A DNA stretch of 12,538 nt, taken from NCBI GenBank assembly GCA_002869095.1, contig PKTO01000301.1:1-12538 (forward strand), written 5' to 3'. Of the stretch, positions 1-12,536 are shown in pieces. The notes under the pieces are model-generated. The model was not told the DNA's origin. It saw only the letters and a list, made by a program, of their open reading frames with translations, and did no database searches. A program made the position numbers and the translations under genes. Each line of letters begins with the position of its first letter. Position 1 is the first letter of the stretch. The stretch comes from Clostridiales bacterium. Its GTDB lineage: Bacteria > Bacillota > Clostridia > Peptostreptococcales > BM714.

Positions 1-536
1 CGGATGCCTTTTTTGCCAAGCTCTTTGCACCATGTCTTGGTCATTCCGATAACGCCCCATTTGCAGGCGGCATAGTTGGTTTGACCGAAATTGCCGTAAA
101 GGCCGACAACAGAAGATGCGCTGAGTATTACTCCGCCTGTGCCCTGCTCAAGCATTTGGAGAGCTGCGGCCTGTCCGCAAAGATATACGCCCTTGAGGTT
201 TACGTTTATAACCTTGTCAAAGTCCGCTTCGGGCATTTTCTTGAGCTGGTTGTCAGCAGTGATTCCCGCATTGTTGACTATTATATCGAGCTTTCCGAAA
301 GCCTCCACCGTGTCGGCAACCATCTTGTCGACAGCTTCCTTGCTTGTGACATTGACATTCAGTCCGATTGCTTCTCCGCCCGCAGCCTTGATTTCAGCAA
401 CAGTTTTTTCAACATCGGCCATGTTCATGTCGGCAACCGCAACTTTTGCGCCCTCTGCGGCGAATTTCTTTGCTGTAGCGGCCCCTATTCCTCTTCCTCC
501 GCCGGTAACAATACCAACTTTTCCTTCAAGTCTCAT
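1..536 (-). CDS. SDR-family 3-oxoacyl-(CoA/ACP) reductase, FabG/PhbB-like; 3' end beyond window
   Basis: Short-chain dehydrogenase interconverting a 3-oxoacyl thioester and the (R)-3-hydroxyacyl thioester in the cytoplasm. The 178 visible residues contain the Rossmann motif TGGGRGIG (11-18), NNAG (88-91), Asn113, and the catalytic Ser142-Tyr155-Lys159 with the family's 13-residue Ser-Tyr spacing. The active-site string is YAACK, with Cys where Ser is common. Asp36 at the end of the second beta strand suggests NAD(H) rather than NADP(H) use (inference). About 70 C-terminal residues of a roughly 245-residue family are off the left edge. The ATG at 536 follows AAGGAGGGG by 5 bases. It is the third visible gene of the sigma-54 operon that starts with the CoA transferase, 75 bp after the permease gene. 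The middle region (GITADNQLKKMPEADFDK) resembles FabG/PhbB more than 3-hydroxybutyrate dehydrogenase BdhA. CoA thioesters are a more likely substrate than ACP thioesters given the neighbours. I am sure of the family and less sure of the substrate. Confidence 0.9.
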   Translation of the reverse strand, partial: MRLEGKVGIVTGGGRGIGAATAKKFAAEGAKVAVADMNMADVEKTVAEIKAAGGEAIGLNVNVTSKEAVDKMVADTVEAFGKLDIIVNNAGITADNQLKKMPEADFDKVINVNLKGVYLCGQAAALQMLEQGTGGVILSASSVVGLYGNFGQTNYAACKWGVIGMTKTWCKELGKKGI

Positions 537-611: not shown

Positions 612-1985
612 TCAAACAACGCCCATTGTTGCGAAAACAATTGCAATTGCTGTGGCTATAATAGGTATGACAACCGTGCACATTCCGATGTCAGCATAGG
701 ATTCCCTGTGCGACAATCCGCATATTCCAAGAAGCGTTATGACTGCTCCGTTATGAGGCAAGCTGTCCAAGCCGCCGCAGGCCATTGCAGCTATTCTGTG
801 GAAGGCCGCCGGGTCGATTCCGAGAGCCAAAGCCTTTTGCATGTATATGTCTCCAAGAGCGCCGAGCGCTATGCTCATTCCGCCTGATGCCGAGCCTGTG
901 ATACCTGCCAAGACACTGGTTGAAACAGCCAGCGAGATAAGCGGTGTCCCCGGTATTGCCAGGATTGCAGTCTTGACGAGCGCGAATGCTCCCAAAGTCT
1001 TGATTACGTTTCCGTAACCTACTTCTGAAGATGTGTTTACGATAGCAAGAAGCGAACCGAATGCGCCTTGGTTGACACAATTCTTGACATCGCCGATTTT
1101 GTTTTTGAAAAGAAGAATTGTCAAAATAACGGCTGCTACGAGTGAGATTATGATGCTCCAAATTCCTCTTACCTTGGCAATCGATGTTCCGTAATCAGCC
1201 AGATAAGCCGCTTCCATGTTTGCGAAAACAAACTTGGTGAGAACAAAGTTGAGGCCCAAGACCAAGAATATGGGAAGAAGCGCCATCATGAGGCTTGGAA
1301 GCTCATCATAAGCAATTTCCTTGATATTTTCGTTGGGATGGTCTCCATAGCCTTCGCCCTTTGCCATGGCCGCCTTCGATCTTCTTTGAAGCCAGAATAC
1401 GCCGCCGCCGAACATTACTGCCGCGCCTATGAGCCCGAGGAACGGTGCCGCCCAAGGAGTAGTCTCAAAGAAAGGCATCGGTATTGCGTTTTGTATTTGC
1501 GGAGTTCCGGGAAGCGCCGTCATTGTGAATGTGAAAGATCCAAGCGCTATTGCAGCTGGTATGAATCTTTTCGGAACTTCAGCTTCTCTGAAAAGAGCTG
1601 CCGCGATCGGATAAACAGCGAAAGCAACAACGAAAAGCGAAACTCCACCGTATGTAAGGATTCCGCAGGAAAGAACGACTGCAGTGATGGCTTTTCCTTT
1701 TCCCAATTTATCGGTGATTCCATGGGCAATCGCTTTTGCAGCTCCGGACTCGTCCATCAATTTGCCGAATATGGCTCCCAAGAGGAAGAGCGGAAAGTAT
1801 GCCTTTGCGTATCCTGCAAATGCAGTCATGAAAACTTCCGTATAACTTGCCATAAGCGGAACGTCTCCGGACATAAGTGCTGCCAGTCCTGCGAGAATCG
1901 GGGCCAAAATCAAAACCGTGATACCTCTATAAGCAAGATACATCAATAAACCCAGAGATATGATAATTCCAAATATTCCTAACAT
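612..1985 (-). CDS. GntP-family permease (gluconate/organic-acid transporter type)
   Basis: Integral membrane transporter of 457 residues, a usual length for the GntP family (gluconate:H+ symporters and relatives that carry hydroxy acids and short organic acids). The protein is hydrophobic throughout, with about a dozen likely transmembrane helices. One longer hydrophilic loop lies near residues 200-230 (QRRSKAAMAKGEGYGDHPNE), as expected between two halves. Glycine/serine-rich re-entrant stretches such as GITGSASGGMSIALGALG (about 360-380) and the DSLPHNGAV segment (about 405-415) are typical of the family. The ATG at 1985 follows AAGGAG. The gene sits 78 bp after the CoA transferase stop and 75 bp before the SDR gene, with no terminator visible in either gap, so the three are probably one transcript. 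Substrate inference: GntP-type permeases next to 3-hydroxybutyrate dehydrogenase and a sigma-54 activator occur in pseudomonad 3-hydroxybutyrate clusters, so a short hydroxy or keto acid is likelier here than gluconate. Confidence 0.88.
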   Translation of the reverse strand: MLGIFGIIISLGLLMYLAYRGITVLILAPILAGLAALMSGDVPLMASYTEVFMTAFAGYAKAYFPLFLLGAIFGKLMDESGAAKAIAHGITDKLGKGKAITAVVLSCGILTYGGVSLFVVAFAVYPIAAALFREAEVPKRFIPAAIALGSFTFTMTALPGTPQIQNAIPMPFFETTPWAAPFLGLIGAAVMFGGGVFWLQRRSKAAMAKGEGYGDHPNENIKEIAYDELPSLMMALLPIFLVLGLNFVLTKFVFANMEAAYLADYGTSIAKVRGIWSIIISLVAAVILTILLFKNKIGDVKNCVNQGAFGSLLAIVNTSSEVGYGNVIKTLGAFALVKTAILAIPGTPLISLAVSTSVLAGITGSASGGMSIALGALGDIYMQKALALGIDPAAFHRIAAMACGGLDSLPHNGAVITLLGICGLSHRESYADIGMCTVVIPIIATAIAIVFATMGVV

Positions 1986-2063: not shown

Positions 2064-3614
2064 CTATATTTCCAGCCCCATCAATCCCTCTTTGAATATT
2101 GCCGGATTCATTTCTTTCAGGTCTTCCGCAACAATCGGTTCAAAATCCATCAAATCGAGAACTTGCGTTTTCAAGTCTATTCCAGGGGCTATTTCAGTCA
2201 GTGTAAGCCCCTCTTTTCTGAGTTCGAATACAGCTCTCTCCGTAACATAAAGCACCGGTTGTCCAACTTCATTGGCATAGTCTCCGCTGAAGGTTACCTG
2301 TTCAACCTCTTTGATGAATTTTTTGAATCTTCCTTCATTTTCAATGACAAGCTTTCCGTTGTCGGCCTTAACCTTAAGTCCGCCAGCCATGAAAGTTCCA
2401 CAGTAAACGACTTTCTTTGCATTTTGTGTTATGTTTATGAATCCTCCGCAACCGGCTATCTTGGGTCCGAATTTGGAAACATTGATATTTCCTCCAAAGT
2501 CGCACTGGGCAAGCCCGAGGAATGCAACATCGAGTCCTCCACCGTCATAAAAGTCAAACTGGTACGGCTGGTCTATTATGCACTGGGCATTTATGCTCGC
2601 TCCAAAGCTCAGTCCTCCTGCGGGAACTCCGCCGATAGGTCCAGCCTCTACAGTAAGAACCATTTCATCTCCGCAGCCTTCTTCATTGGCTACAGCAGCA
2701 ACACCCTCCGGAACTCCTATTCCCAAGTTCACTTTGGAGTTTGGCACCAATTCCATGGCCGCCCTTCTGGCAATCATTTTTCTTTCATTGAGTTTCATGG
2801 CTTTGATTCCATCAAGCGGCATGCGTATATCGCCACAGTAAGCAGGATTGAACTGCTCCGCAAAAGTCTGCATATGGTTTTCAGCTTCAGCTGCTACAAC
2901 CGCATCCACATATATTCCCGGAATCTTCACATCATGAGGATGCAAGCTTCCATTTTCCACGACTTTCTGAACCTGAACTATTACTTTTCCTCCCGAATTG
3001 GTTACCGCTTGAGCTATCGAAAGATTCTCAAGAAAAGCCGCTTCCTTTTCGAGTGTGATGTTGCCGAATTCATCGGCATATGTTCCCCTTATAAGGGCCA
3101 CATCAATCGGGAAAGCCTTGTACAGCAGCCTTTCCTTGCCTGTGATTTCCACCACTTCCACTACATCTTCCTTTGTCATCTCATTGAGCTTTCCACCCTC
3201 CAAACGGGGGTCGACAAACGTCTTGAGCCCTACATGAGTGATTGTTCCGATTTTACCCGCCGCAATGTCCCTGAACATATGCGATATTACACCCTGCGGG
3301 AGATTGTAGGCCTCAATCTTGTTTTCAAGCGCAAGCTTCTGCATTTTTGGAGCCAAGCCCCAATGGCCGCCGATAACTTTTTTTATGAGTCCTTCGTGTC
3401 CCAAATGATTGAGTCCCCGCTCCGCGCCGTCGCCCTGTCCGGCCGCGTATACGAGACCGAGATTTTTCGGCGATCCGTCTTCCACGAATCTTTTTTCAAG
3501 TGCCTTTGTCAATTCTTCCGGGTGCCCGTTTCCTACGAACCCGCCGGTTGCCACCATGTCTCCATCTTTTATCAGAGCTACGGCAGCTTCAGCTGTCATG
3601 ACCTTCGATTTCAA
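2064..3614 (-). CDS. Fused alpha/beta acyl-CoA:carboxylate CoA-transferase (YdiF/propionate CoA-transferase type)
   Basis: Class I CoA transferase with both subunits in one chain. It moves CoA from an acyl-CoA such as acetyl-CoA to a free short-chain acid through a glutamyl-CoA thioester. From the TTG start the protein has 516 residues, close to the 517-531 of YdiF and clostridial propionate CoA-transferase. The N-terminal half carries [19 protein letters not shown], and the C-terminal half carries VEAGPIGG with the presumed catalytic Glu323, followed by glycine-rich [19 protein letters not shown]. Start choice: an in-frame GTG at 3647 would add 11 residues, but it has no ribosome site and falls at the predicted sigma-54 transcription start. 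The TTG at 3614 lies 7 bases after AAAGGAGGG (3621-3629) and begins [18 protein letters not shown], where the family normally begins. It is the first gene of the sigma-54 operon. Substrate (3-hydroxybutyrate, acetoacetate, propionate, etc.) cannot be read from sequence. Confidence 0.93.
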
Positions 3615-3657
3615 ACTGTTCCCTCCTTTATGTATTTTTTGTCGCACCTATATATCA

Positions 3658-3674
3658 AGCAAATATTATGCCAA
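3658..3674 (-). promoter_or_regulatory. Sigma-54 (-24/-12) promoter of the CoA-transferase operon
   Basis: On the minus strand the element reads TTGGCATAATATTTGCT, with GG (3672-3671) and GC (3660-3659) separated by exactly 10 bases, as RpoN promoters require. The expected start of transcription is about 3647, giving a leader of about 33 bases to the TTG start at 3614. The activator gene lies directly upstream and a dyad enhancer is centred 144 bp upstream of the GG. Confidence 0.88.
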
Positions 3675-3715
3675 TATTCAAAGAAACGCATATTGCGCGA
3701 CACTTCAAATCAAAA

Positions 3716-3759
3716 GCAGCCATAAAGCCGATTTTGACGCCTTCGGCTTTAATGGCTGC
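3716..3759 (-). terminator. Intrinsic terminator after the sigma-54 activator gene (probably bidirectional)
   Basis: Arms 3716-3731 and 3743-3759 pair over 16 bp with a single bulged base around an 11-base loop. On the minus strand the hairpin is followed by TTTTGATTT, which would end transcription of the activator gene. On the plus strand it is followed by seven T (3761-3767), so it can also stop antisense transcription. It stands between the enhancer dyad (3808-3824) and the sigma-54 promoter (3658-3674). Confidence 0.85.
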
Positions 3760-3807
3760 ATTTTTTTGAAAAATACAAATACGCCCTTTGCGTTCACATT
3801 GACTACA

Positions 3808-3824
3808 TGTAAACATTGTTTACA
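3808..3824. promoter_or_regulatory. Enhancer (UAS) dyad for the sigma-54 activator, operon B copy
   Basis: The sequence TGTAAACATTGTTTACA is a perfect 7-3-7 inverted repeat that begins 3 bases beyond the activator stop codon. The same dyad with a different 3-base centre occurs at 9218-9234. The flanks are also shared (ACA before, CTC or CTT after). Position, symmetry and proximity to the activator gene fit a binding site for its Fis-type helix-turn-helix. Binding by this activator is an inference. Confidence 0.82.
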
Positions 3825-3826
3825 CT

Positions 3827-5545
3827 CTATTGTTGCAGATATCTCTCCAAACGGTAGCGTTCTATCTTGGCATAAAGACAAGTCCTGCTTATCCCCAAAA
3901 TTCTCGCCGCCTTGTTTTTGTTGCCTTCGTGCTCAATAAGGGTTTTCTTTATAATCTCCTTTTCTATGTCCGCCAGAATTTCCTTCAACTGTCCATCCGG
4001 ACATGCGTATGTCCTTGCATTTTGGGCTAAAAGTTTCTGTGGGAAGTGCTCGGGCCTTATGAGCAAATCGCTTTCCAGCATATTGAGGGCCCTTTCAATA
4101 ATATTTTCGAGTTCCCTCGCGTTTCCGGGCCAGTCATATGCAACTAGATGCTTAAGTGCTTCAGCCGAAATCCCCTCGACATGAACCCCAAGCCTGGTTT
4201 CAACCTTTTTCATCAAGTTTTTTGCAATTATCTCAATGTCCTCTTTTCTTTCCCTCAGAGAAGGGAGCCTTAGCCTTACAACGTTCAGCCTGTAATAGAG
4301 GTCCTCTCTGAAAGTTCCCTCGTCCACCATTTTTTCGATGTCCCGGTTTGTTGCCGCAATGACGCGCACATCAAGCTCATGAATCTTGTTGCCTCCGACG
4401 GATTCAATTTCTTTCTCCTGTATCACCCTTAGGAGCTTTGCCTGCATTTTGAGAGGCATGTCGCCTATTTCATCAAGAAAAATGGTTCCCTTGTCGGCCA
4501 AAAGGAATTTTCCTCTTTTGCCGCCCTTTCTGGCTCCTGTGAAAGCCCCCTCCTCGTATCCGAAAAGTTCGGACTCAAGCAACTCCGCAGGTATTGCGGC
4601 GCAGTTGATTTTCACAAAAGGGCCAAGACGGCGATCGCTGTCGCTGTGGATTGCATGGGCGAAAAGCTCTTTTCCTGTACCGCTTTCCCCGGTTATGAGG
4701 ACATTGGAATTTGTTTTGGTCGCCCTCTGGGCAATCCTCTTGACATCGTTTATCTTCCTGCTTATTCCGGCAATATTGTCAAAAGAGTATTTTGCCGTCC
4801 GCTCCTTTCCCAGCTCGCTTTTATAGTACTCGACTTCCTTTTCAAGGACATTGAGTTTTTTGTTCAGAAAATCCAATTCACTTATGTCCTTTAGCACTAC
4901 CTTACCTATCGCCCCATAGATCTTTCCATCTTTTTTGAGAGGCATCCTCATTGCTATCATCTTGTTGTCGCCTATCTGCTGGATGTCCCCGAATTCCTTT
5001 TCACCGGTCTTGAGAACTATGTCCATCCGAGTGTTTTCTATTACGTCCCAAACGTATTTGCCTTCCGGATTTAGGTCACCTATGAATTCCTTGTATCCCT
5101 TGCTCATCATCACTATCTTCGCATCCTCGTCAACTACCACCATCCACTCGTTGAATGTGTTGAGAAGGGTGTTTACGATGTTTATGTAGATTTCATCCTC
5201 TTCGAGCTTGTTGCTCATTATTTTAAAATCGGTGACATCCCTGAAAAAGGAAACTGCTCCCAGTATTTCGCCCGCTTCCTTGACCGGATATCTGTTGACT
5301 CTGAAAAACTTGCCGTTTTCCTCGAAAAGCTCTCCTATTTCCTTTTCACCCGTCTCCATGACCCTGCAGATTCCGCAATTCTTTATTACTTCCGAAAGGT
5401 TTTTTCCTATCGCCTCCTCCCACTCTATCCCGAGGAGTTTTACCGCTTTTTCGTTGAAAATCGTAATTTTTTTATGTCTGTCGACACATACTATTGCGTC
5501 AGTAGTATTGTCCAGCACAGCATTGAAAATCATTCTGTCATTCAA
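3827..5545 (-). CDS. Sigma-54-dependent transcriptional activator (PAS-PAS-AAA+-Fis HTH)
   Basis: Cytoplasmic enhancer-binding protein that drives open-complex formation by RpoN polymerase. Domains, numbered from the TTG at 5545 (572 residues): PAS 1 about 4-105, PAS 2 about 120-220, a charged helical linker about 222-250, AAA+ about 255-480, and Fis-type helix-turn-helix about 530-567. Visible motifs are Walker A GESGTGKE (286-293), the sigma-54 contact loop GAFTGA (333-338), Walker B IFLDEIGD (355-362), and [18 protein letters not shown] in the DNA-binding domain. All are intact. There is no response-regulator receiver domain, so the signal is probably a small molecule or redox state sensed by the PAS domains. 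PAS 1 carries CGIC (Cys57, Cys60). Start choice: an upstream TTG at 5569 has no ribosome site, whereas the TTG at 5545 follows GGGGGTGGAG closely. The ATG at 5533 is a third option. Its likely targets are the two dyads and three sigma-54 promoters in this window (inference). It resembles HbcR-type activators in context, but orthology was not tested. Confidence 0.93.
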
Positions 5546-5622
5546 AATTCTCCACCCCCAAAATTTCAACGGTTCTTTTTATGTAAATTTTGAACTATCC
5601 AAACAATTAGAAACATAGGGTA

Positions 5623-5631
5623 ATTATATCA
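5623..5631 (-). promoter_or_regulatory. Sigma-A extended -10 promoter of the activator gene
   Basis: The minus strand reads TGATATAAT, a perfect TATAAT hexamer with the TGn extension. No good -35 box is seen at 17 bases, which is tolerated by extended -10 promoters. Transcription would start near 5616, about 70 bases before the TTG start at 5545. It lies just downstream of the terminator of the thiolase operon, so the activator has its own constitutive-type transcript. Confidence 0.65.
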
Positions 5632-5667
5632 CAATTTTCAAACAATTTTAGTGCCTCCTCCGTATTT

Positions 5668-5701
5668 TCAAAAAAGCAAAAATGCCAATCCTGGATTGAC
5701 A
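5668..5701 (-). terminator. Intrinsic terminator of the hbd-thiolase operon
   Basis: On the minus strand TGTCAATC and GATTGGCA form an 8-bp stem (one G-T pair) with a 3-base loop (5683-5701), followed by TTTTTGCTTTTTT (tail to 5671). It lies about 120 bp after the stop of the SCP2-type thiolase gene and before the activator promoter. The remaining bases 5702-5819 hold nothing I recognise beyond a weak GCAAGG/CCTTGT hairpin without a T tract. Confidence 0.72.
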
Positions 5702-5819
5702 ATTTTTGCATATGTTCCAACTATTATGGGGGTTTATTTCAAACTTCGGCGACAGCCATAGGCGTTCATTATGTACATGCCGCACAAGGATACCCCTTGC
5801 CCGCCGCCAAAGCCGAAAA

Positions 5820-7010
5820 CTATTTTATGCGTTTGTAAACCAATGCGTAGCAGCTTGCCGAGCTTCCGCCGACATTGAACGTCAATCCCGTTTCAGCGTC
5901 CTTTTTCTGTATGCCTACGGCTTTTCCAAGAAGCTGCCTTGTTGCAAGAACCGCCATCGAAACACCCGTTGTGCCGACAGGATGGCCTTTGGCCTTAAGC
6001 CCGCCCGAAAGATTGACCGGGAGCTTGCCGTCACGGAAAACTATGCCCTCTTCGAGCGCAAGGTGTCCCATTCCGCCTTCTTTGATTCCCATCGCTTCAT
6101 AGGCAAGCAATTCATTTATAGTGAAGCAGTCGTGAACTTCTGCAAAATCCAGGTCGTCGACTGTTATTCCGGCTTTTGCGTACGCCTTTTGAATTGCCAG
6201 TTTTCCGGCGGTAAGTTCGTAATCCGCGCGTTTGCCTGAAACGAGACTGAGGTAATCGGTGGTATGGCCTATGGCAGAAATTTCTACAACCTCTTCCATT
6301 GTTTTTAACGCATTCTCAGTCTTGGTAAGCACCATAGCCGCGGCTCCGTCGGAAACAAGAGAACAGTCGAAGAGCCTTAGAGGATCCGCTATTATGGGAT
6401 TCTTCCTGTCTTCCTTGCCCAGTATCTTTTCGGCGGTTATGTTCATCGGCATATGGGCCAGCGGGTTTTCAACCGCATTGGTATGGTTCTTGGCAGCTAT
6501 TTGAGCGAATGTGTTTCTCATCATTTCCAATGAATAGTCATAATGCTTCATATACCCTTTTGCATATTCCGCGAAGAGTCCCGGGAAAGTCATCCCGTTC
6601 GCTCCCTCATCCGGCCAGTAGGATGCCGTCGCAAGGGCATGGGTGACGCCACGGGTGTCCAATGATGTCATTTTCTCCGCGCCGATTACGAGGGCGTAAT
6701 CGATTTCTCCAGCTTCCAATGCATAGGATGCCATCTCAATTGCCGCCGACCCGGATGCGCATGCGTTCTCGAGACGCGTGGAGGGCTTGAATCTGAGCCC
6801 CGGGTCGATATCTACGACCATGGCTCCAAGATGCTCCTGGTTTACAAATTGCCCAGCCGAAAAGTTGCCTAGGAATACTGCGCCAATCGCATCCGCTTCA
6901 ATGCCGGAGTCCTTCAGCGCTCCCCGTCCGGCATTCAAGATCAAGTCGTATATTGTTTCTTCCAAAGCTCCAAACTTGCTGTGGTATGTTCCGATTACAC
7001 TGATGCTCAT
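5820..7010 (-). CDS. SCP2-type thiolase (acetyl-CoA C-acyltransferase family)
   Basis: Thiolase-fold enzyme of 396 residues, expected to cleave a 3-oxoacyl-CoA or to condense acyl-CoAs. Nucleophile Cys84 lies in ENACASGSAA. His343 lies in the GHP motif of NLSGGLKAKGHPVGTTG. HDCF (293-296) replaces the NEAF motif of classical thiolases. In the SCP2/SCPx group the second catalytic cysteine comes from this HDCF motif (here Cys295), and the C-terminal CxG motif is absent. This protein agrees: it ends in GGSSASCYALVYK. There is no C-terminal sterol-carrier domain. The ATG at 7010 follows AGGAGG, which overlaps the stop of the upstream thiolase gene; the gap is 10 bp, so the two are translated from one mRNA. 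Such thiolases are often encoded beside a DUF35 zinc-ribbon/OB-fold partner, but none is present here. The substrate is unknown, perhaps longer or branched 3-oxoacyl-CoA compared with its neighbour. Confidence 0.9.
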   Translation of the reverse strand: MSISVIGTYHSKFGALEETIYDLILNAGRGALKDSGIEADAIGAVFLGNFSAGQFVNQEHLGAMVVDIDPGLRFKPSTRLENACASGSAAIEMASYALEAGEIDYALVIGAEKMTSLDTRGVTHALATASYWPDEGANGMTFPGLFAEYAKGYMKHYDYSLEMMRNTFAQIAAKNHTNAVENPLAHMPMNITAEKILGKEDRKNPIIADPLRLFDCSLVSDGAAAMVLTKTENALKTMEEVVEISAIGHTTDYLSLVSGKRADYELTAGKLAIQKAYAKAGITVDDLDFAEVHDCFTINELLAYEAMGIKEGGMGHLALEEGIVFRDGKLPVNLSGGLKAKGHPVGTTGVSMAVLATRQLLGKAVGIQKKDAETGLTFNVGGSSASCYALVYKRIK

Positions 7011-7020
7011 TTTTTTCCTC

Positions 7021-8202
7021 CTATGACCGTTTTACAATTACAGCTTCGCCCATTCCTCCGCCTATGCAAAGTGTGGCCAAACCGTATTTGCTTTCGCGCT
7101 TCTGCATTTCATAAAGAAGCGTTACAAGTATTCTTGCTCCGGAGCACCCAATCGGATGTCCAAGCGCTATCGCCCCTCCATTTACATTGACTATGTCCGT
7201 GTTGAGGCCAAGATCTTTTACAACTGCAAGCGATTGGGCGGCAAATGCTTCGTTGGCCTCTATGAGATCCATGTCGTCCACTGCAAGGCCGGCAATCTCA
7301 AGCGCTTTTCTTGTAGCCGGAATTGGTCCGGTTCCCATTATGCTGGGGTCGACCCCTGCCGACGCATGCGAGACTATTGTTGCCAAGGGCTTTATTCCAA
7401 GCTCATCGGCCTTTTCCTTTGTCATTATTACGAGCGCAGCGGCTCCGTCGTTTATTCCGGATGCGTTTCCTGCTGTAACAGATCCGTCTTTCTTGAATGC
7501 GGGCCTGAGTTTGGCCAATTTTTCCGCTGTGCTTCCGAACTTTGGATGCTCGTCCGTGTCGAATACGATTGGGTCTTTCTTCCTTTGCGGTATTTCTATG
7601 GGAAGTATTTCGTCCTTGAATCTTCCCGATGTGATTGCCTTCTCGGCTCTGAGCTGGCTCTCGAGTGCAAAAGCATCCTGTCCTTGGCGGTCGAGTCCCC
7701 ATTGCTCGACTATGTTCTCAGCAGTCACGCCCATGTGGTATCCGTTGAATATCTCCCAAAGTCCGTCCATAACCATCGGATCGTACAATTCTCCGTTGCC
7801 CATTCTCTGTCCCCATCTGGCGTTCTTTACCAGGTATGGAGCCATGCTCATGTTTTCGGTTCCACCCGCAACAACTATCTCGCAATCGCCTGCGGCAATC
7901 TGCTGCATTGCCAGCGATACGGTCTTGAGGCCCGAACCGCAAATCATGTTGACGGTCCATGCAGGCACTTCGCATGGAATGCCGGCTTTTATAGCCGACT
8001 GCCTTCCTACTCCTTGTCCATATCCAGCCTGGAGCACGCAGCCGAAAATAACCTCGTCAACTTTTTCGGGTGCAACTTTTGCCCTTGACAAAGCTTCTTT
8101 TATTACAGCGGCGCCCATGTCCATGGGAGTGACTGTCTTAAGCGCTCCGCCGAAAGTTCCTATTGCCGTTCTGACTGCACTTGCAATAACTATTTCCTTC
8201 AT
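7021..8202 (-). CDS. thlA: Acetyl-CoA C-acetyltransferase (biosynthetic/degradative-type thiolase)
   Basis: Classical thiolase converting two acetyl-CoA to acetoacetyl-CoA and CoA, reversibly, in the cytoplasm. At 393 residues it has the usual length. Nucleophile Cys88 lies in [13 protein letters not shown] is at 317-320, the GHP motif has His349 ([16 protein letters not shown]), and the acid/base Cys379 lies in CIGGGMGEA. All catalytic positions of the tetrameric clostridial ThlA/AtoB/PhbA group are present. The ATG at 8202 follows GGAGGAG. The hbd stop is 18 bp upstream and the next thiolase 10 bp downstream, so it is the middle gene of a three-gene operon driven by the sigma-54 promoter at 9113-9129. 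In this context it would form or cleave the acetoacetyl-CoA handled by Hbd. The symbol thlA is used by family resemblance; atoB would serve equally. Confidence 0.95.
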
Positions 8203-8220
8203 GTTGACTCCTCCATTTTT

Positions 8221-9069
8221 CTATTTTGTATAATCGTAGAATCCCTTTCCTGTTTTTCTTCCCAAAAGATTCGCGCGGCACATTTTTCTGAGAAGAGGAT
8301 GGGCCCTGTATTTTGGATCGCCGTACTCTTCGTATAAAACTTCCATTATTGCAAGGTTTACATCATTTCCAATAAGGTCGGCAAGCGCCAAAGGCCCTAT
8401 CGGATGGTTGGCTCCAAGCTTCATGGCGGCATCAATATCCTCTGCCGTTGCAACTCCGTCTGCAAGGATTCCCACGGCCTCGTTGATCATGGGAACAAGT
8501 ATCCTGTTGACCACAAACCCCGGAGCCTCTTCCACTTCAACTGGAGTCTTGCCCAACTCCCTGGCAAGCTCAAGAACAGTATTGCATGTCTCGTCTGAGG
8601 TAAGCATTCCCCTTATCACTTCAACCAGCTTCATTACAGGAACAGGATTGAAAAAATGCATTCCTATTATGTTTGCGGGTCTTCCGGTCACGCTTGCCAC
8701 ATCTGTAATCGAAAGGGATGATGTGTTTGTAGCAAGTATCGCCCCTTCCTTTACAACTCCATCGATTTCTTCGAATATTTTTTTCTTGATCGCCATGTTT
8801 TCGGTAGCGGCCTCGACAACCAAGTCGCAGTCGGCCAAGTCCAGCACATCGGTAGTTTGATGGATTCTTCCCAATATGGCTTTCTTTTCAGCCTCGTCGA
8901 TTTTTTCCTTCTTTACAAGACGGCCCAAGCTTTTTTCTATCCCCGCCATGCCTTTTTCAAGAAATTCCGGTTTCAAATCGCGATTGACCACTTCAAAACC
9001 TTTTGAAGCAAAAGCCTGCGTAATACCGGACCCCATTGTTCCGGCGCCTATAACACCAATTTTCTTCAT
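8221..9069 (-). CDS. hbd: 3-hydroxybutyryl-CoA (3-hydroxyacyl-CoA) dehydrogenase
   Basis: NAD-dependent enzyme that interconverts (S)-3-hydroxybutyryl-CoA and acetoacetyl-CoA. At 282 residues it matches the short clostridial Hbd. The Rossmann fold spans about 1-185, with GAGTMG (8-13) and Asp31 at the end of the second beta strand, the usual NAD mark. NTSS (115-118), HFFNP with catalytic His138, Glu150 twelve residues later, and Asn188 in APGFVVNR complete the active site. The C-terminal helical domain (about 186-282) ends in GRKTGKGFYDY, as in clostridial Hbd. The ATG at 9069 follows AGGGAGG. It is the first gene of operon A, directly under a sigma-54 promoter with a leader of about 33 bases, and has no crotonase or acyl-CoA dehydrogenase beside it, unlike the clostridial bcs butyrate operon. 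That points to catabolic or substrate-induced use rather than the core butyrate pathway (inference). Confidence 0.95.
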   Translation of the reverse strand: MKKIGVIGAGTMGSGITQAFASKGFEVVNRDLKPEFLEKGMAGIEKSLGRLVKKEKIDEAEKKAILGRIHQTTDVLDLADCDLVVEAATENMAIKKKIFEEIDGVVKEGAILATNTSSLSITDVASVTGRPANIIGMHFFNPVPVMKLVEVIRGMLTSDETCNTVLELARELGKTPVEVEEAPGFVVNRILVPMINEAVGILADGVATAEDIDAAMKLGANHPIGPLALADLIGNDVNLAIMEVLYEEYGDPKYRAHPLLRKMCRANLLGRKTGKGFYDYTK

Positions 9070-9112
9070 AAAATCCCTCCCTGTTATGTATGTTCTGTCG
9101 ACTTATATATCA

Positions 9113-9129
9113 AGCAAGTTTCATACCAA
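9113..9129 (-). promoter_or_regulatory. Sigma-54 (-24/-12) promoter of the hbd-thiolase operon
   Basis: The minus strand reads TTGGTATGAAACTTGCT, with GG-N10-GC spacing. The C at the fifth position of the consensus is T here, so it may be somewhat weaker than the other two promoters. The expected start is about 9102. The sequence just after it (CTTGATATATA, GT, CGACA, ATACATAA) nearly matches the region after the promoter at 3658-3674, which supports both calls. Confidence 0.86.
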
Positions 9130-9178
9130 TACCAAAAATATATTCTTCTCGCATTTTGAACCTTTAAGAGCGGCAAAC

Positions 9179-9204
9179 AAAAAAAAGACACATGAAAATG
9201 TGTC
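9179..9204 (-). terminator. Intrinsic terminator between enhancer and hbd promoter
   Basis: GACACAT (9187-9193) and ATGTGTC (9198-9204) form a perfect 7-bp stem with a 4-base loop. On the minus strand it is followed by eight T (complement of A at 9179-9186). It can only terminate leftward transcription that starts to the right of it, where no sizeable minus-strand gene is seen. Confidence 0.78.
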
Positions 9205-9217
9205 CATCTATACGACA

Positions 9218-9234
9218 TGTAAACTTAGTTTACA
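9218..9234. promoter_or_regulatory. Enhancer (UAS) dyad shared by two divergent sigma-54 promoters
   Basis: TGTAAACTTAGTTTACA is a perfect 7-3-7 inverted repeat with the same half-sites as the one at 3808-3824. Its centre is about 100 bp from the GG of the hbd promoter (minus strand) and about 122 bp from the GG of the plus-strand promoter at 9346-9362, both normal enhancer distances. One activator-bound site could therefore serve both directions. Confidence 0.82.
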
Positions 9235-9298
9235 CTTTAAATTTCGCCTCATTCGGCATTTTTGCAATTCGCATTTTGAATTCCTGCATTAATTTCAT
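9230..9298 (-). CDS. Possible small ORF (22 aa) or gene remnant upstream of hbd
   Basis: A reading frame MKLMQEFKMRIAKMPNEAKF plus two residues ends with a TAA inside the enhancer dyad, and the frame is open back to a stop at 9338-9340. The peptide is basic and amphipathic-looking. A possible sigma-A promoter lies upstream (9366-9374) and a good terminator downstream (9179-9204), so a transcript of about 180 bases is plausible. The ribosome site is poor (AAAGG about 11 bases before ATG). It may be a small protein, a non-coding RNA, the end of a decayed gene, or chance. I do not recognise it. Confidence 0.2.
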   Translation of the reverse strand: MKLMQEFKMRIAKMPNEAKFKV

Positions 9299-9345
9299 GC
9301 CGTCTTGTGCCTTTTTCTCCAGAGTGGTAAGATGACACTATATTC

Positions 9346-9362
9346 TTGGCATCTTAATTGCA
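9346..9362 (+). promoter_or_regulatory. Sigma-54 (-24/-12) promoter of the unknown membrane-protein gene
   Basis: TTGGCATCTTAATTGCA matches the RpoN consensus almost fully, with GG (9348-9349) and GC (9360-9361) separated by 10 bases and both the TTGGCA and TTGCA blocks intact. The expected start is about 9373, 36 bases before the ATG at 9409. The bases after it (TTGATTATA) resemble the TTGATATATA that follows the other two sigma-54 promoters. Confidence 0.84.
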
Positions 9363-9365
9363 TTG

Positions 9366-9374
9366 ATTATACCA
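9366..9374 (-). promoter_or_regulatory. Possible sigma-A extended -10 promoter facing hbd
   Basis: The minus strand reads TGGTATAAT, a perfect -10 hexamer with the TGn extension. A TTGAAA lies about 20 bases upstream, too far for a normal -35 box. If active, it would start a transcript near 9359 that passes through the enhancer dyad and ends at the terminator at 9179-9204. In A/T-rich DNA such a match can be chance. Confidence 0.35.
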
Positions 9375-9389
9375 TAGAATATATTCTAT
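9374..9389. repeat. 16-bp perfect palindrome at the start of the plus-strand transcript
   Basis: ATAGAATATATTCTAT equals its own reverse complement. It begins at the predicted +1 of the sigma-54 promoter at 9346-9362 and ends before the ribosome site (AAAGGAG, about 9396-9402). It could be an operator for a repressor or only an A/T-rich coincidence; it has no loop for a stable RNA hairpin except by opening its centre. Confidence 0.4.
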
Positions 9390-9408
9390 ATTTTCAAAGG
9401 AGCGGCTT

Positions 9409-9876
9409 ATGAACCAATACGAGATTTTAAGGGTCAAACTGGCAAGTGAATATATCGATGATAAAATAAGCGAAATGAAATGTTTCGGTTGGCAGGTAAA
9501 AGAAAAAACCGATAGCACAAGACGCGGAAAGGCTTACACCCGTACAAAAGACAGCAGGCCTGTACCCGTTTTGACCAGGGGGGTATTCTACTCGACGGTC
9601 GTTTTCAAACGAAGGTCAGACCATAAACCCGTCGTTGCCTCGATAGTGGAATTGGAGAATGAATACAGAAAGCCAGGTTTGTTTCCGGCAGTAAGCATAC
9701 CTATACTTTTCACAATAATATGTTTGATCGGCACCGCGATGAGGATCGACTGGGTGTATTACGCAGGCACGGCACTCGGCGCCGCTTGGATATACTACAG
9801 CTACAGAAAGCGCAAGCAGACAAAGGAAAGCTACATTTGTCTGATGGAACGAATGAAAGAAACCTTTTCAATCTGA
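9409..9876 (+). CDS. Unrecognised two-helix membrane protein, 155 aa, under sigma-54 control
   Basis: I do not recognise this family. The first 90 residues are hydrophilic and basic, with a predicted alpha-helical start (EILRVKLASEYIDDKI) followed by strand-like segments (VFYSTVVFKRRS). Two hydrophobic segments follow, about 91-110 (LFPAVSIPILFTIICLIGTA) and 115-131 (WVYYAGTALGAAWIYYS), joined by a very short turn. A basic tail RKRKQTKES follows, so both ends are probably cytoplasmic by the positive-inside rule. There is no signal peptide and no conserved Cys/His cluster. The ATG follows AAAGGAG and the gene ends at a strong terminator, so it is monocistronic. It diverges from hbd and has its own sigma-54 promoter sharing the enhancer dyad at 9218-9234, so it is probably induced with the CoA-ester operons. 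That context suggests a role in uptake, sensing or membrane adaptation during growth on the same substrate, but nothing in the sequence shows it. Confidence 0.85.
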   Translation: MNQYEILRVKLASEYIDDKISEMKCFGWQVKEKTDSTRRGKAYTRTKDSRPVPVLTRGVFYSTVVFKRRSDHKPVVASIVELENEYRKPGLFPAVSIPILFTIICLIGTAMRIDWVYYAGTALGAAWIYYSYRKRKQTKESYICLMERMKETFSI

Positions 9877-10106: not shown

Positions 10107-12536
10107 TTAATAAAGCTTTGAGCCTTCAAACTCGTAAGTTGTATACTGATCATACATTGAGCTGCCATTAGGGCTGATTCGTGAAATTCTTCCATACATG
10201 TCGGCTCCATCCCCGGTAGCGGTAAACTGGATGATTCCTTGGAATGTCATGCCCCTTTTTTCCATGGAGAATGTTACGTTTCCGCCATTGAAAGAAACAT
10301 CTCTTATTTCCGACAATGCAGTATTGAAGCCAAGAAAATCACTCAAAGTAATATTTGCAATTCCGTCTTCCGAAATTCTCAGTCCAAAATTGTCTCTGTC
10401 GATTTGCGTCTGCCCAAGTAATTTCGAATAATCCTCATAGCTGTTTTCTGCATTCTCTATCGCCATGGTTCTGCGCTGTTCTGCAGTGTACCAGATGTCG
10501 CCATGAAAATCTGTCCAGGGAACAGCTTCATATCCTGACATCCAGAATGTGCATGAATACGTTCCCTTGATGTCGGCGTACTGGTCTTCGGTGATTTCTT
10601 CCACCGGTTCGACAGGCTGTTCGGAAACCTCGATCGAGATTTCAGATGAAACAATTTCATCCAAATCTTTTGCCGCAATCTTATGGAAACCCGTTTCGCC
10701 GCTTGAAAAAGTGAGTTTGTCTCCATAATTCTCTACAGCTTCGCCATCAATAAACCAATATAGATCAGGAGGATCGATTCCCGATTCCATGAATGCTGTA
10801 ATCCCGGTTGTTTCATTAATGCCGACAATATTTTTTTCAGAGACCATCATCAGTTCAGTATCATTGAAGACCTTGACCCATTCGAACCCGGCCCATCGTA
10901 CAGGGTCATGCGGCCTTTGACCTTCAAAAATGAAACCGATCCAGTTTTCATCTTCCTCGAGCACAGGCAGGAGATACATGGTCTTTCTGTCCGGATAAGG
11001 CTGAAGGTGATATGGCCTTTCTATTTCTTCCAAAGTTTCCCGGTCATAAAGAACGAGCTCTGCGCCGGAAGAATCGATGACTCTTATTGTATAGTCCGGA
11101 AAGATGCCCTCGGGAACTTCAATAATGAAATCATAGTGGCCTATTACGCCATTCGGTCCATTTGAGAGAATTTGAAAATGGGGGAAATATTCATTTGAGA
11201 GAAGGCCTTCGGAAACCTCTTTCCAGCGCTTTTCGACCTTATACTCGTCAACTGTGGAAAATTCCCCCAGATAATAGAATTCGTCATATGCTACCGAATC
11301 GCCATCGTCGATTGATGTGAAATCAGTGCCGGAAGAATACGGCTTGAAATGGCCGTTTTCAAATTCGATATATCGTTCCTGACCGGGATAATTCGGATCC
11401 GCCACATAAAGTTTGTTTCCTTTTATTCCGTAGGCAATCATGGCATGGCCTGAAGATCCTCCCGAATAAATGCCAATAAGCTGTGGACGGCAGGTAAGAG
11501 CCATGCTCATATAAAAAGCATCCCAATTGTTTTGATCGATGCCCTTTCCTAAAATACCGGAGGGATCCATGATATCCTCGGCATACATCATTGCATAAAT
11601 ATAACTGCCCTTCGTGACATCAAGGTGCACGCTGCTTGCAAACCTGTAAAGCCAACTGTCGTCTTCCCAAATATCAGGTGTCCTGAAAGGGAGATCGTTG
11701 TTGTCAAACAGATGATATAGGGCGGTTGACGAATCGTCCATATTTTTCTGGCGGATATTCTTGAAATACCAAAGCGCACCGACCGACTGCCCTTCGCAGT
11801 GTCCGCCGGGGACCGCATAAGATCCTCTGTTTACAAAGCTGAAATCATCCATTCCCGGGGTGAAACCTGTCGCAATGTCGGCAGATGATTTTACTTTTTC
11901 TAGCTGGTCGCGACTCATTTGGGCTATAAATATATTGCTGAAATGATTGGTATGTATTTTCAGGATACCGTCTTCTGCACAGGATGGAATCATCTCGATT
12001 TCATTGGCTTGAGAATCGTAATAAAAAGCCATCGGGTAGTGTGTTTCTTCATTGTTGAATTCGAAGGACAAATCGATGATTTTTGAGGAAAAGGCGTTTG
12101 AATTGTCAATGACATATAATGGGGAAACAACTTCGATGCCATCAATATTAAGGTTTGTTATGGATTTTGTTGAAATCTTGAAATCAACCGGCTCCGCAAA
12201 AGATTCTTCCGGTATCGAAATAATCAAATTCCCGACATCGATTATGCATTGGTCCGAGTTGACGGTTTCATTGATTTGCTCTTCACTGGAAGCGGAAAGT
12301 TCCACCAGGGGAACAACTTGAGTCTCTTTTTCGTTTTCCTGGTTTTCCGCATCTTGATTTTCTTCCACTATTTTGGAATCAATTGCATTTGCATTGTTTT
12401 CGGAGCCGCTTTCAGTCACAGCTTCTTCAGCCGCCTCATAATCCATATCGGCTTCATCAATCCTGTCGGAGTTGCATCCCGTCAGAAAAATCAAAACAAG
12501 CACTGTAAAAAAGACAAAACGAATTTTAGATTTCAA
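10107..12536 (-). CDS. Secreted lipoprotein with ZU5-like region and papain/C39-like cysteine-peptidase core
   Basis: Surface lipoprotein of 809 residues. The signal peptide MKSKIRFVFFTVLVLIFLTG ends in a lipobox with Cys21. An acidic Glu/Asn/Gln-rich spacer spans 22-95. Residues about 96-205 look like a ZU5-type beta domain (ISIPEESFAEPV and the closing THNFS-like TNHFSNIFIA). Residues about 222-440 hold a probable cysteine-peptidase fold: Cys247 in GGHCEGQSVGALWYF, His364 in SSGHAMIAYG and Asp380/Asn382 in VADPNYPG, in the Cys-His-Asp/Asn order of papain-like and C39-like enzymes. Residues about 460-545 and 565-640 look like beta-sandwich or Ig/PKD-type modules, and about 650-809 is a beta-rich C-terminal domain. 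Substrate and role are unknown. The start is TTG, 2 bases from the right edge, chosen because the signal peptide begins there; its ribosome site is outside the window. It has no evident link to the CoA genes and is separated by a terminator. Confidence 0.8.
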   Translation of the reverse strand: MKSKIRFVFFTVLVLIFLTGCNSDRIDEADMDYEAAEEAVTESGSENNANAIDSKIVEENQDAENQENEKETQVVPLVELSASSEEQINETVNSDQCIIDVGNLIISIPEESFAEPVDFKISTKSITNLNIDGIEVVSPLYVIDNSNAFSSKIIDLSFEFNNEETHYPMAFYYDSQANEIEMIPSCAEDGILKIHTNHFSNIFIAQMSRDQLEKVKSSADIATGFTPGMDDFSFVNRGSYAVPGGHCEGQSVGALWYFKNIRQKNMDDSSTALYHLFDNNDLPFRTPDIWEDDSWLYRFASSVHLDVTKGSYIYAMMYAEDIMDPSGILGKGIDQNNWDAFYMSMALTCRPQLIGIYSGGSSGHAMIAYGIKGNKLYVADPNYPGQERYIEFENGHFKPYSSGTDFTSIDDGDSVAYDEFYYLGEFSTVDEYKVEKRWKEVSEGLLSNEYFPHFQILSNGPNGVIGHYDFIIEVPEGIFPDYTIRVIDSSGAELVLYDRETLEEIERPYHLQPYPDRKTMYLLPVLEEDENWIGFIFEGQRPHDPVRWAGFEWVKVFNDTELMMVSEKNIVGINETTGITAFMESGIDPPDLYWFIDGEAVENYGDKLTFSSGETGFHKIAAKDLDEIVSSEISIEVSEQPVEPVEEITEDQYADIKGTYSCTFWMSGYEAVPWTDFHGDIWYTAEQRRTMAIENAENSYEDYSKLLGQTQIDRDNFGLRISEDGIANITLSDFLGFNTALSEIRDVSFNGGNVTFSMEKRGMTFQGIIQFTATGDGADMYGRISRISPNGSSMYDQYTTYEFEGSKLY

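Follow-up and report, generated by a model that had tools for sequence, protein, structure and literature searches.

A predicted local sigma-54 regulon of coenzyme A-transferase and 3-hydroxybutyryl-CoA dehydrogenase operons in a Clostridiales bacterium

Which genes are controlled by the sigma-54 activator encoded on contig PKTO01000301.1 of a Clostridiales bacterium (assembly GCA_002869095.1), and through which sites? The contig, 12,538 nucleotides long and hereafter called the window, carries the activator gene between two operons with a predicted role in short-chain acid metabolism. These parts very probably form a local sigma-54 regulon consisting of the activator, two operons each with a dyad and a sigma-54 promoter, and a third promoter that probably adds a 155-amino-acid (155-aa) protein. 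The genome comprises 1,927,370 bases in 370 contigs and is 90.87% complete; about 9% may be absent.

An earlier note on this DNA had claimed that the window holds three GG-N10-GC promoters, two exact TGTAAAC-N3-GTTTACA dyads 100–145 bp from them, and a PAS/AAA+/Fis activator with a GAFTGA motif. All of these parts were recovered, and only the spacing needs correction. The promoters are good matches and lie before the CoA-transferase operon (TTGGCATAATATTTGCT, 3658..3674, minus strand), the hbd-thiolase operon (TTGGTATGAAACTTGCT, 9113..9129, minus strand) and the 155-aa gene (TTGGCATCTTAATTGCA, 9346..9362, plus strand). In the window, TTGGYATN5TTGC occurs without mismatch at these three promoters and nowhere else. 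Counterparts of the first promoter precede CoA-transferase homologues in relatives. The hbd promoter has a TTGGTAT variant, which also precedes hbd at loci L160, L161, L216, L217 and L218, and the 155-aa promoter is a strict match. The strict pattern TTGGCAYN5TTGC has 25 matches in the genome, two of them in the window, versus 1 for the reversed control; we therefore infer that a strict match is usually a real promoter. The genome has a single rpoN (PF04552 match, E 1.1e-62).

The two dyads are putative upstream activator sites. Site 1 (TGTAAACATTGTTTACA, 3808..3824) has 7/7 symmetric pairs and lies 2 nt past the activator stop codon, while site 2 (TGTAAACTTAGTTTACA, 9218..9234) lies between the divergent hbd and 155-aa promoters. 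They are the sole exact copies in the genome, where about 0.01 (0.011) would be expected. With up to three mismatches, 109 dyads were found versus 121 for the reversed control. Mismatch classes 0, 1, 2 and 3 hold 2, 0, 11 and 96 sites (the last by subtraction) versus 0.011, 0.46, 8.6 and 99 expected from independent, identically distributed bases at the guanine-plus-cytosine content of the window, not of the genome. Classes 1 to 3 follow chance, and the exact pair alone stands out. The exact dyad was found in 0/59 other relatives. Both dyads have the form TGT-N11-ACA, in keeping with the 10–12 bp between TGT and ACA in known clostridial regulons. Taken as edge-to-edge coordinate differences, the distances from dyad to promoter are 134 (CoA-transferase), 89 (hbd) and 112 (155-aa gene). 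The claimed range of 100–145 bp holds for 134 and 112, and 89 is slightly under it; the same two values fall within the 100–250 bp typical of known clostridial regulons, and 89 slightly below.

We also considered whether the dyads are RNA hairpins, as terminator or attenuator parts, instead of protein sites. Terminator-like hairpins do stand close to the dyads in the window, and in a relative (L157), less perfectly in a second (L158), a dyad lies inside a longer hairpin 3' of the activator gene. The flanks of the window dyads, however, are unpaired (4/12 and 3/12 pairs), and the N11 spacing with TGT/ACA ends, strongly enriched among relatives, is foreign to terminators. The hairpin explanation is therefore rejected for the window dyads and is very improbable overall. 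At L157 (about 11557-11602) and, less perfectly, L158 (about 7834-7882) the dyad tops this longer hairpin, which lies past the activator gene and runs on into T-rich sequence. In these two loci the activator site and the gene terminator may share bases.

The activator is encoded at 3827..5569 on the minus strand. Its likely start, predicted from the ribosome-binding site and homologue starts, is TTG 5545, giving 572 amino acids. The protein has a PAS domain (residues 15-116), an N-terminal stretch without Pfam assignment, an AAA+ domain (PF00158, 242 bits) and a C-terminal Fis-type helix-turn-helix (PF02954, 52 bits, residues 532-572). GAFTGA is invariant in 12 aligned proteins. The Pfam profile (16 matches) includes PAS families and no receiver family. 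No sigma-54 promoter match was found in the stretch upstream of the gene, and a terminator-like hairpin lies ahead of it, 3' of the hbd operon (5683..5701, minus strand). The activator gene thus appears to be a separate transcription unit without its own sigma-54 match. Close orthologues have a CxxC in the PAS domain (NCGICRV, NCEICRV) near residue 72 (window about 5340-5365) that is absent from the distant ones aligned, possibly pointing to redox or metal sensing. At one locus (L159 in G006, 7053-16293) homologues of the permease, CoA-transferase, short-chain dehydrogenase and thiolase lie between two activator paralogues.

Relatives were compared with the window at their activator loci. Using a threshold of E <= 1e-170, activator orthologues were found in 22 of the 393 genomes of the order, its own included. 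The nearest named orthologues belong to Paramaledivibacter, Maledivibacter, Wukongibacter and similar anaerobes, which makes it probable that the host is a clostridial anaerobe too. Many activator orthologues have homologues of the CoA-transferase, permease, hbd and thiolase genes nearby, and several relatives have the same neighbourhood. Sigma-54 promoters precede target homologues at 17 of the 20 non-window loci with an activator orthologue. The resulting 28 promoters are the basis of the dyad enrichment and half-site counts, which omit L162, L220 and L221 (target homologues without a promoter), a weak hbd promoter of L157 (score 0.86) and the activator-gene promoters of L159, L163 and L223. 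Ten loci (L049-L052, L057, L070, L164-L167) were scanned for promoters outside these counts. Of a set of 51 loci, 16 (L047-L061, L070) were compared with the window proteins and 8 were promoter-scanned.

Dyads were scored in relatives as TGT-N11-ACA with at least 5/7 symmetric pairs. Upstream of the 28 promoters 34 such sites were found, distributed over 20 of them; shuffles gave a mean of 0.8 and a maximum of 4, the reversed pattern gave 1, and other dyad spacers from 6 to 16 gave 0-8 sites in the same stretches. The window half-sites are matched at 13/14 by seven of the 28 promoters (0.01 expected per set). These include both target kinds and two families, with CoA-transferase in G028 and G056 and hbd in G034, G012, G077, G089 and G100. 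Two more promoters reach 12/14, and 19/28 score at most 11. A looser pattern, TGTAAAYN3RTTTACA, has matches in 52/393 genomes, and its reversed control also matches in many (not summed); most such sites are probably due to chance. Four looser matches lie upstream of hbd about 1.3 kb from an activator orthologue (G034 at L160, G100 at L218, G077 at L216 and G012 at L161). The recognition helix reads ISRx[G/C]LY[K/A]K in the window and at 7 loci with TGTAAAC, and ISRTSLYQK at 5 loci with TGTTCA/TGTACA. This correspondence between helix and half-site reflects a single evolutionary change or a small number of them, as opposed to many independent events. The parts, their spacing, rarity and conservation, and the match of helix to half-site are all read directly from the sequences. 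The promoters, dyads and helices of other genera thus back the earlier claim that the activator binds the dyads and controls the two minus-strand operons. It is very likely, on this comparison, that it does so and drives the CoA-transferase/permease and hbd/thiolase operons.

Several points weigh against this reading. The genome has 13 strong matches to sigma-54 activators, so that the link of the dyads to the window activator depends on neighbourhood and comparison. (Five further PF00158 matches of 21-30 bits, over the family cut-off, are probably other AAA proteins.) The comparison loci were chosen for having the activator, come from few clades and are not independent. Three of the 20 (L162, L220, L221) have no sigma-54 promoter before a target homologue, 8/28 promoters lack a TGT-N11-ACA dyad under the scoring rule, and upstream of hbd in L222 no TGT/ACA dyad was found at 10-12 bp spacing. 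Only 9/28 promoters, from 8/17 loci, reach at least 12/14, and 9 of the 22 helices compared fit neither clear site group. The exact dyad is also present in further genomes of the order, such as G326, G254 and G229. Finally, the 155-aa gene is an orphan among the order genomes and as a target has no comparative support.

Could a different regulator bind the dyads, either another of the sigma-54 activators of the genome or a TyrR-like repressor? The TyrR box is TGTAAA-N6-TTTACA, which the window half-site resembles, but the dyad spacing is one base shorter and the window activator, the only one scored, reached 262 bits on the TyrR model against a cut-off of 576. As for the other sigma-54 activators, dyads near two of them differ (TGTTAAC at C61, TGTTCTA at C223), and several showed no dyad by the same scan. 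The dyads, moreover, accompany orthologues of the window activator and match their helix. In favour of another regulator, a near match before ptb-iorA, described below, is partly kept in a genome without the activator (G001), which makes a second regulator with similar preference probable. On balance it is quite unlikely that another regulator serves the window dyads.

The earlier note also expected the motif to lead to the rest of the regulon, and this was not borne out. Scanning the genome for the motif together with sigma-54 promoters gave no further exact site and a lone near match, on contig C42. Sites with up to three mismatches were no more numerous than the reversed control, and the search for a wider regulon by this motif was set aside. 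Dyad scores were obtained for 24 of the 25 strict promoters; around the remaining one (L028) the available stretch ended too soon. A 14/14 dyad accompanies the two strict promoters of the window and no others, and apart from the promoter on C42 none of the rest scores above 11. The screen used strict sigma-54 matches and could miss targets in which both promoter and dyad are looser. A dyad pattern with variable spacer gave 5 forward and 4 reverse matches in the genome versus 4 and 2 in the control; beyond the window dyads one match lies near a strict sigma-54 promoter, again on C42.

The C42 site, TGTAAACATGAGTTTACG, matches at 13/14 with a 4-bp spacer and lies about 80 bp before the sigma-54 promoter TTGGCATGATATTTGCT of ptb-iorA. 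These gene names are best family matches; the ptb models are just under cut-off and iorA is cut by the contig end. G001, which is of the same genus and has no activator orthologue (best match 42%), keeps the ptb promoter together with TGTCAGCGATGGTTTACA, a TGT-N12-ACA remnant. ptb-iorA was therefore set aside as a further target and is at most a possible member; another activator probably serves it. Upstream of ptb at the loci of 28 other relatives no strict sigma-54 promoter was found, and loose matches occur in L238, L246 and L262. On C42 (L141, 1156-1270) a long inverted repeat, its tail rich in T, has TGTAAACATGAGTTTACG in its loop, and the ptb-iorA promoter is perfect. On a further contig of the same genome (C15, L128, 2328-2470) another activator gene precedes a dyad of TGCAA type (TGCAATTATTTGCA), then a hairpin bearing a T run, and finally a sigma-54 promoter. 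By eye, this promoter precedes an acetate/butyrate-kinase-like gene; the order of parts is the same and the half-site different.

Does the third promoter bring the 155-aa gene into the regulon? The gene (9409..9876, plus strand) encodes an orphan protein with a hydrophobic stretch near the C-terminus, seen by eye. It occurs in 1/393 order genomes, its own, and has 8 homologues in a large protein collection. The protein gave no match in PHROGs at E up to 1 and in Pfam matched UbiA alone (E 0.061, far under cut-off); its structure model is of low confidence (mean predicted local distance difference test score, pLDDT, 54.8). Because the gene is present in a single order genome, no footprint could be derived for its promoter, and it is this promoter that makes the gene a putative third target. 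In an alternative with two operons only, the plus-strand sigma-54 match would be idle or weak and the 155-aa gene would use another promoter. The absence of relatives from the 392 other order genomes and a leader unlike those of the two minus-strand transcripts fit this alternative. So do sigma-70-like matches overlapping the stretch (9346-9375 and 9363-9392), which are about as frequent in shuffles. Against it, the strict pattern is a specific one here (25 genome matches versus 1 for the reversed control), the ATG follows 47 nt after the promoter's last base, and a perfect dyad is found 112 bp from the promoter. Furthermore, three homologues are on contigs of 36815, 230590 and 245817, the same sizes as contigs with activator orthologues, which suggests that the gene and the activator share contigs in relatives. 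The two-operon alternative is thus rather unlikely. In the preferred reading site 2 also serves this oppositely directed promoter, and the 155-aa protein is probably part of the regulon.

The two operons are on the minus strand. The first encodes an acyl/3-oxoacid CoA-transferase with both halves in one chain (2064..3647; best NCBIfam match FadX, under its cut-off), a GntP-type permease (612..1985; weak Pfam match, E 0.0038, under cut-off) and a short-chain dehydrogenase resembling FabG and 3-hydroxybutyrate dehydrogenase (3..536, cut by the contig end). The ribosome-binding site and homologue starts place the likely CoA-transferase start at TTG 3614. The second encodes 3-hydroxybutyryl-CoA dehydrogenase (hbd, 8221..9069; NF004474 above cut-off), acetyl-CoA acetyltransferase, a thiolase (7021..8202; TIGR01930 above cut-off), and a thiolase-domain protein (5820..7010; NF005704 above cut-off). 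Judged by these families, the gene set would fit the uptake of short-chain 3-oxo/3-hydroxy acids, their activation with CoA, and cleavage to or formation from acetyl-CoA.

The leaders of the CoA-transferase (3615..3657) and hbd (9070..9112) transcripts, both 43 nt long and on the minus strand, resemble each other. They are identical in 35/45 aligned columns, with a score of 21 versus a maximum of 10 in 2000 single-base shuffles. The likeness is partly due to a common ribosome-binding site, and hints at a copied control cassette. A tentative, and on the whole doubtful, extension is that a cassette of dyad, sigma-54 promoter and leader of about 43 nt spread by copying and placed both operons under one activator. 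Divergent site 2 would then have recruited the lineage-specific 155-aa membrane protein into short-chain acid uptake or sensing. At both minus-strand promoters the space between dyad and promoter contains a hairpin. A strong one, T-rich 3' of the stem on both strands, is found between site 1 and its promoter (3717..3763; -28.5 kcal/mol for the folded stretch, z -4.9), and a terminator-like one between site 2 and the hbd promoter (9186..9205, minus strand; -9.0 kcal/mol, z -2.7). Such hairpins would block read-through into the sigma-54 promoters. Across the window terminator-like hairpins are not enriched (15 versus 12.7 in shuffles). At the far end of the window (10107-12536), an 809-aa protein has a lipobox-like LTGCN, seen by eye, and no Pfam match above cut-off; it is a probable lipoprotein.

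Binding, activation, inducer and direction of flux are matters of inference, and the parts would work together as follows. The activator would sense a small molecule, probably via its PAS domain, and would bind, as a dimer unit, to TGTAAAC-N3-GTTTACA. It would then loop the DNA and, by hydrolysing ATP, open RNA polymerase-sigma-54 at two promoters some 90-135 bp from the dyads. Promoter 1 would drive CoA-transferase, GntP-type permease and short-chain dehydrogenase, and promoter 2 hbd, thiolase and the thiolase-like gene. Their products may import short-chain (3-hydroxy/3-oxo) acids, activate them with CoA and convert them to and from acetyl-CoA.

How does this circuit compare with known systems? 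AtoC, the acetoacetate regulator of E. coli, is a receiver-domain protein with a partner kinase and controls a CoA-transferase, a short-chain acid transporter and a thiolase. The window activator is likewise a predicted sigma-54 activator of such genes, but has a PAS domain where AtoC has a receiver domain and kinase, and scores 347 bits on the AtoC model against a cut-off of 714. Its best NCBIfam match is PrdR, the proline reductase activator, yet at 497 bits against a cut-off of 795 and with different targets. The nearest described systems are clostridial. Nie, Dong and Yang (2019) describe the sigma-54 regulons AhcR, CrbR and XcgR with PAS-type activators, sites with TGT and ACA 10-12 bp apart, and the promoter TTGGCATN5TTGCT (PMC6615313). 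Most activators there adjoin their targets, and sites are mostly 100-250 bp upstream of the -24/-12 promoter. The same source lists PrdR with TGT/ACA sites, reconstructs, for the regulators of the cot-gntT, hbd and thl operons, sites of TGT/ACA type together with sigma-54 promoters, and classes such operons under butyrate/butanol synthesis (PMC6615313). The window shares with these regulons the PAS activator, the TGT/ACA spacing of the sites, the promoter type and the CoA-transferase/gntT and hbd/thl targets beside the activator. It differs in its single perfect dyads, in its set of CoA-transferase/permease/short-chain dehydrogenase and hbd/thiolase/thiolase-like genes, and in the 155-aa gene that has probably joined. 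In another phylum, PA2005 of Pseudomonas aeruginosa is reported to activate (R)-3-hydroxybutyrate use together with sigma-54 (Harris et al. 2015, cited in PMC13390443), a similar pairing of sigma-54 and an activator for ketone-body-type substrates. Among the matches listed, PMC6615313 was the only literature found on cot/gntT and hbd regulons; by title, the matches also included work on sigma-54 in C. beijerinckii (PMC7017808, PMC6510779). A search with the two half-sites as words returned, among the matches listed, none on this regulon by title.

The type of circuit is known for fermenting clostridia, and the window provides a new, well-supported, local example. The pairing of TGTAAAC with ISRx[G/C]LY, set against TGTTCA/TGTACA with ISRTSLYQK in a related clade, aids the reading of clostridial sigma-54 regulons. 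If the third promoter acts as predicted, it would also place an uncharacterised family, that of the 155-aa protein, beside short-chain acid metabolism.

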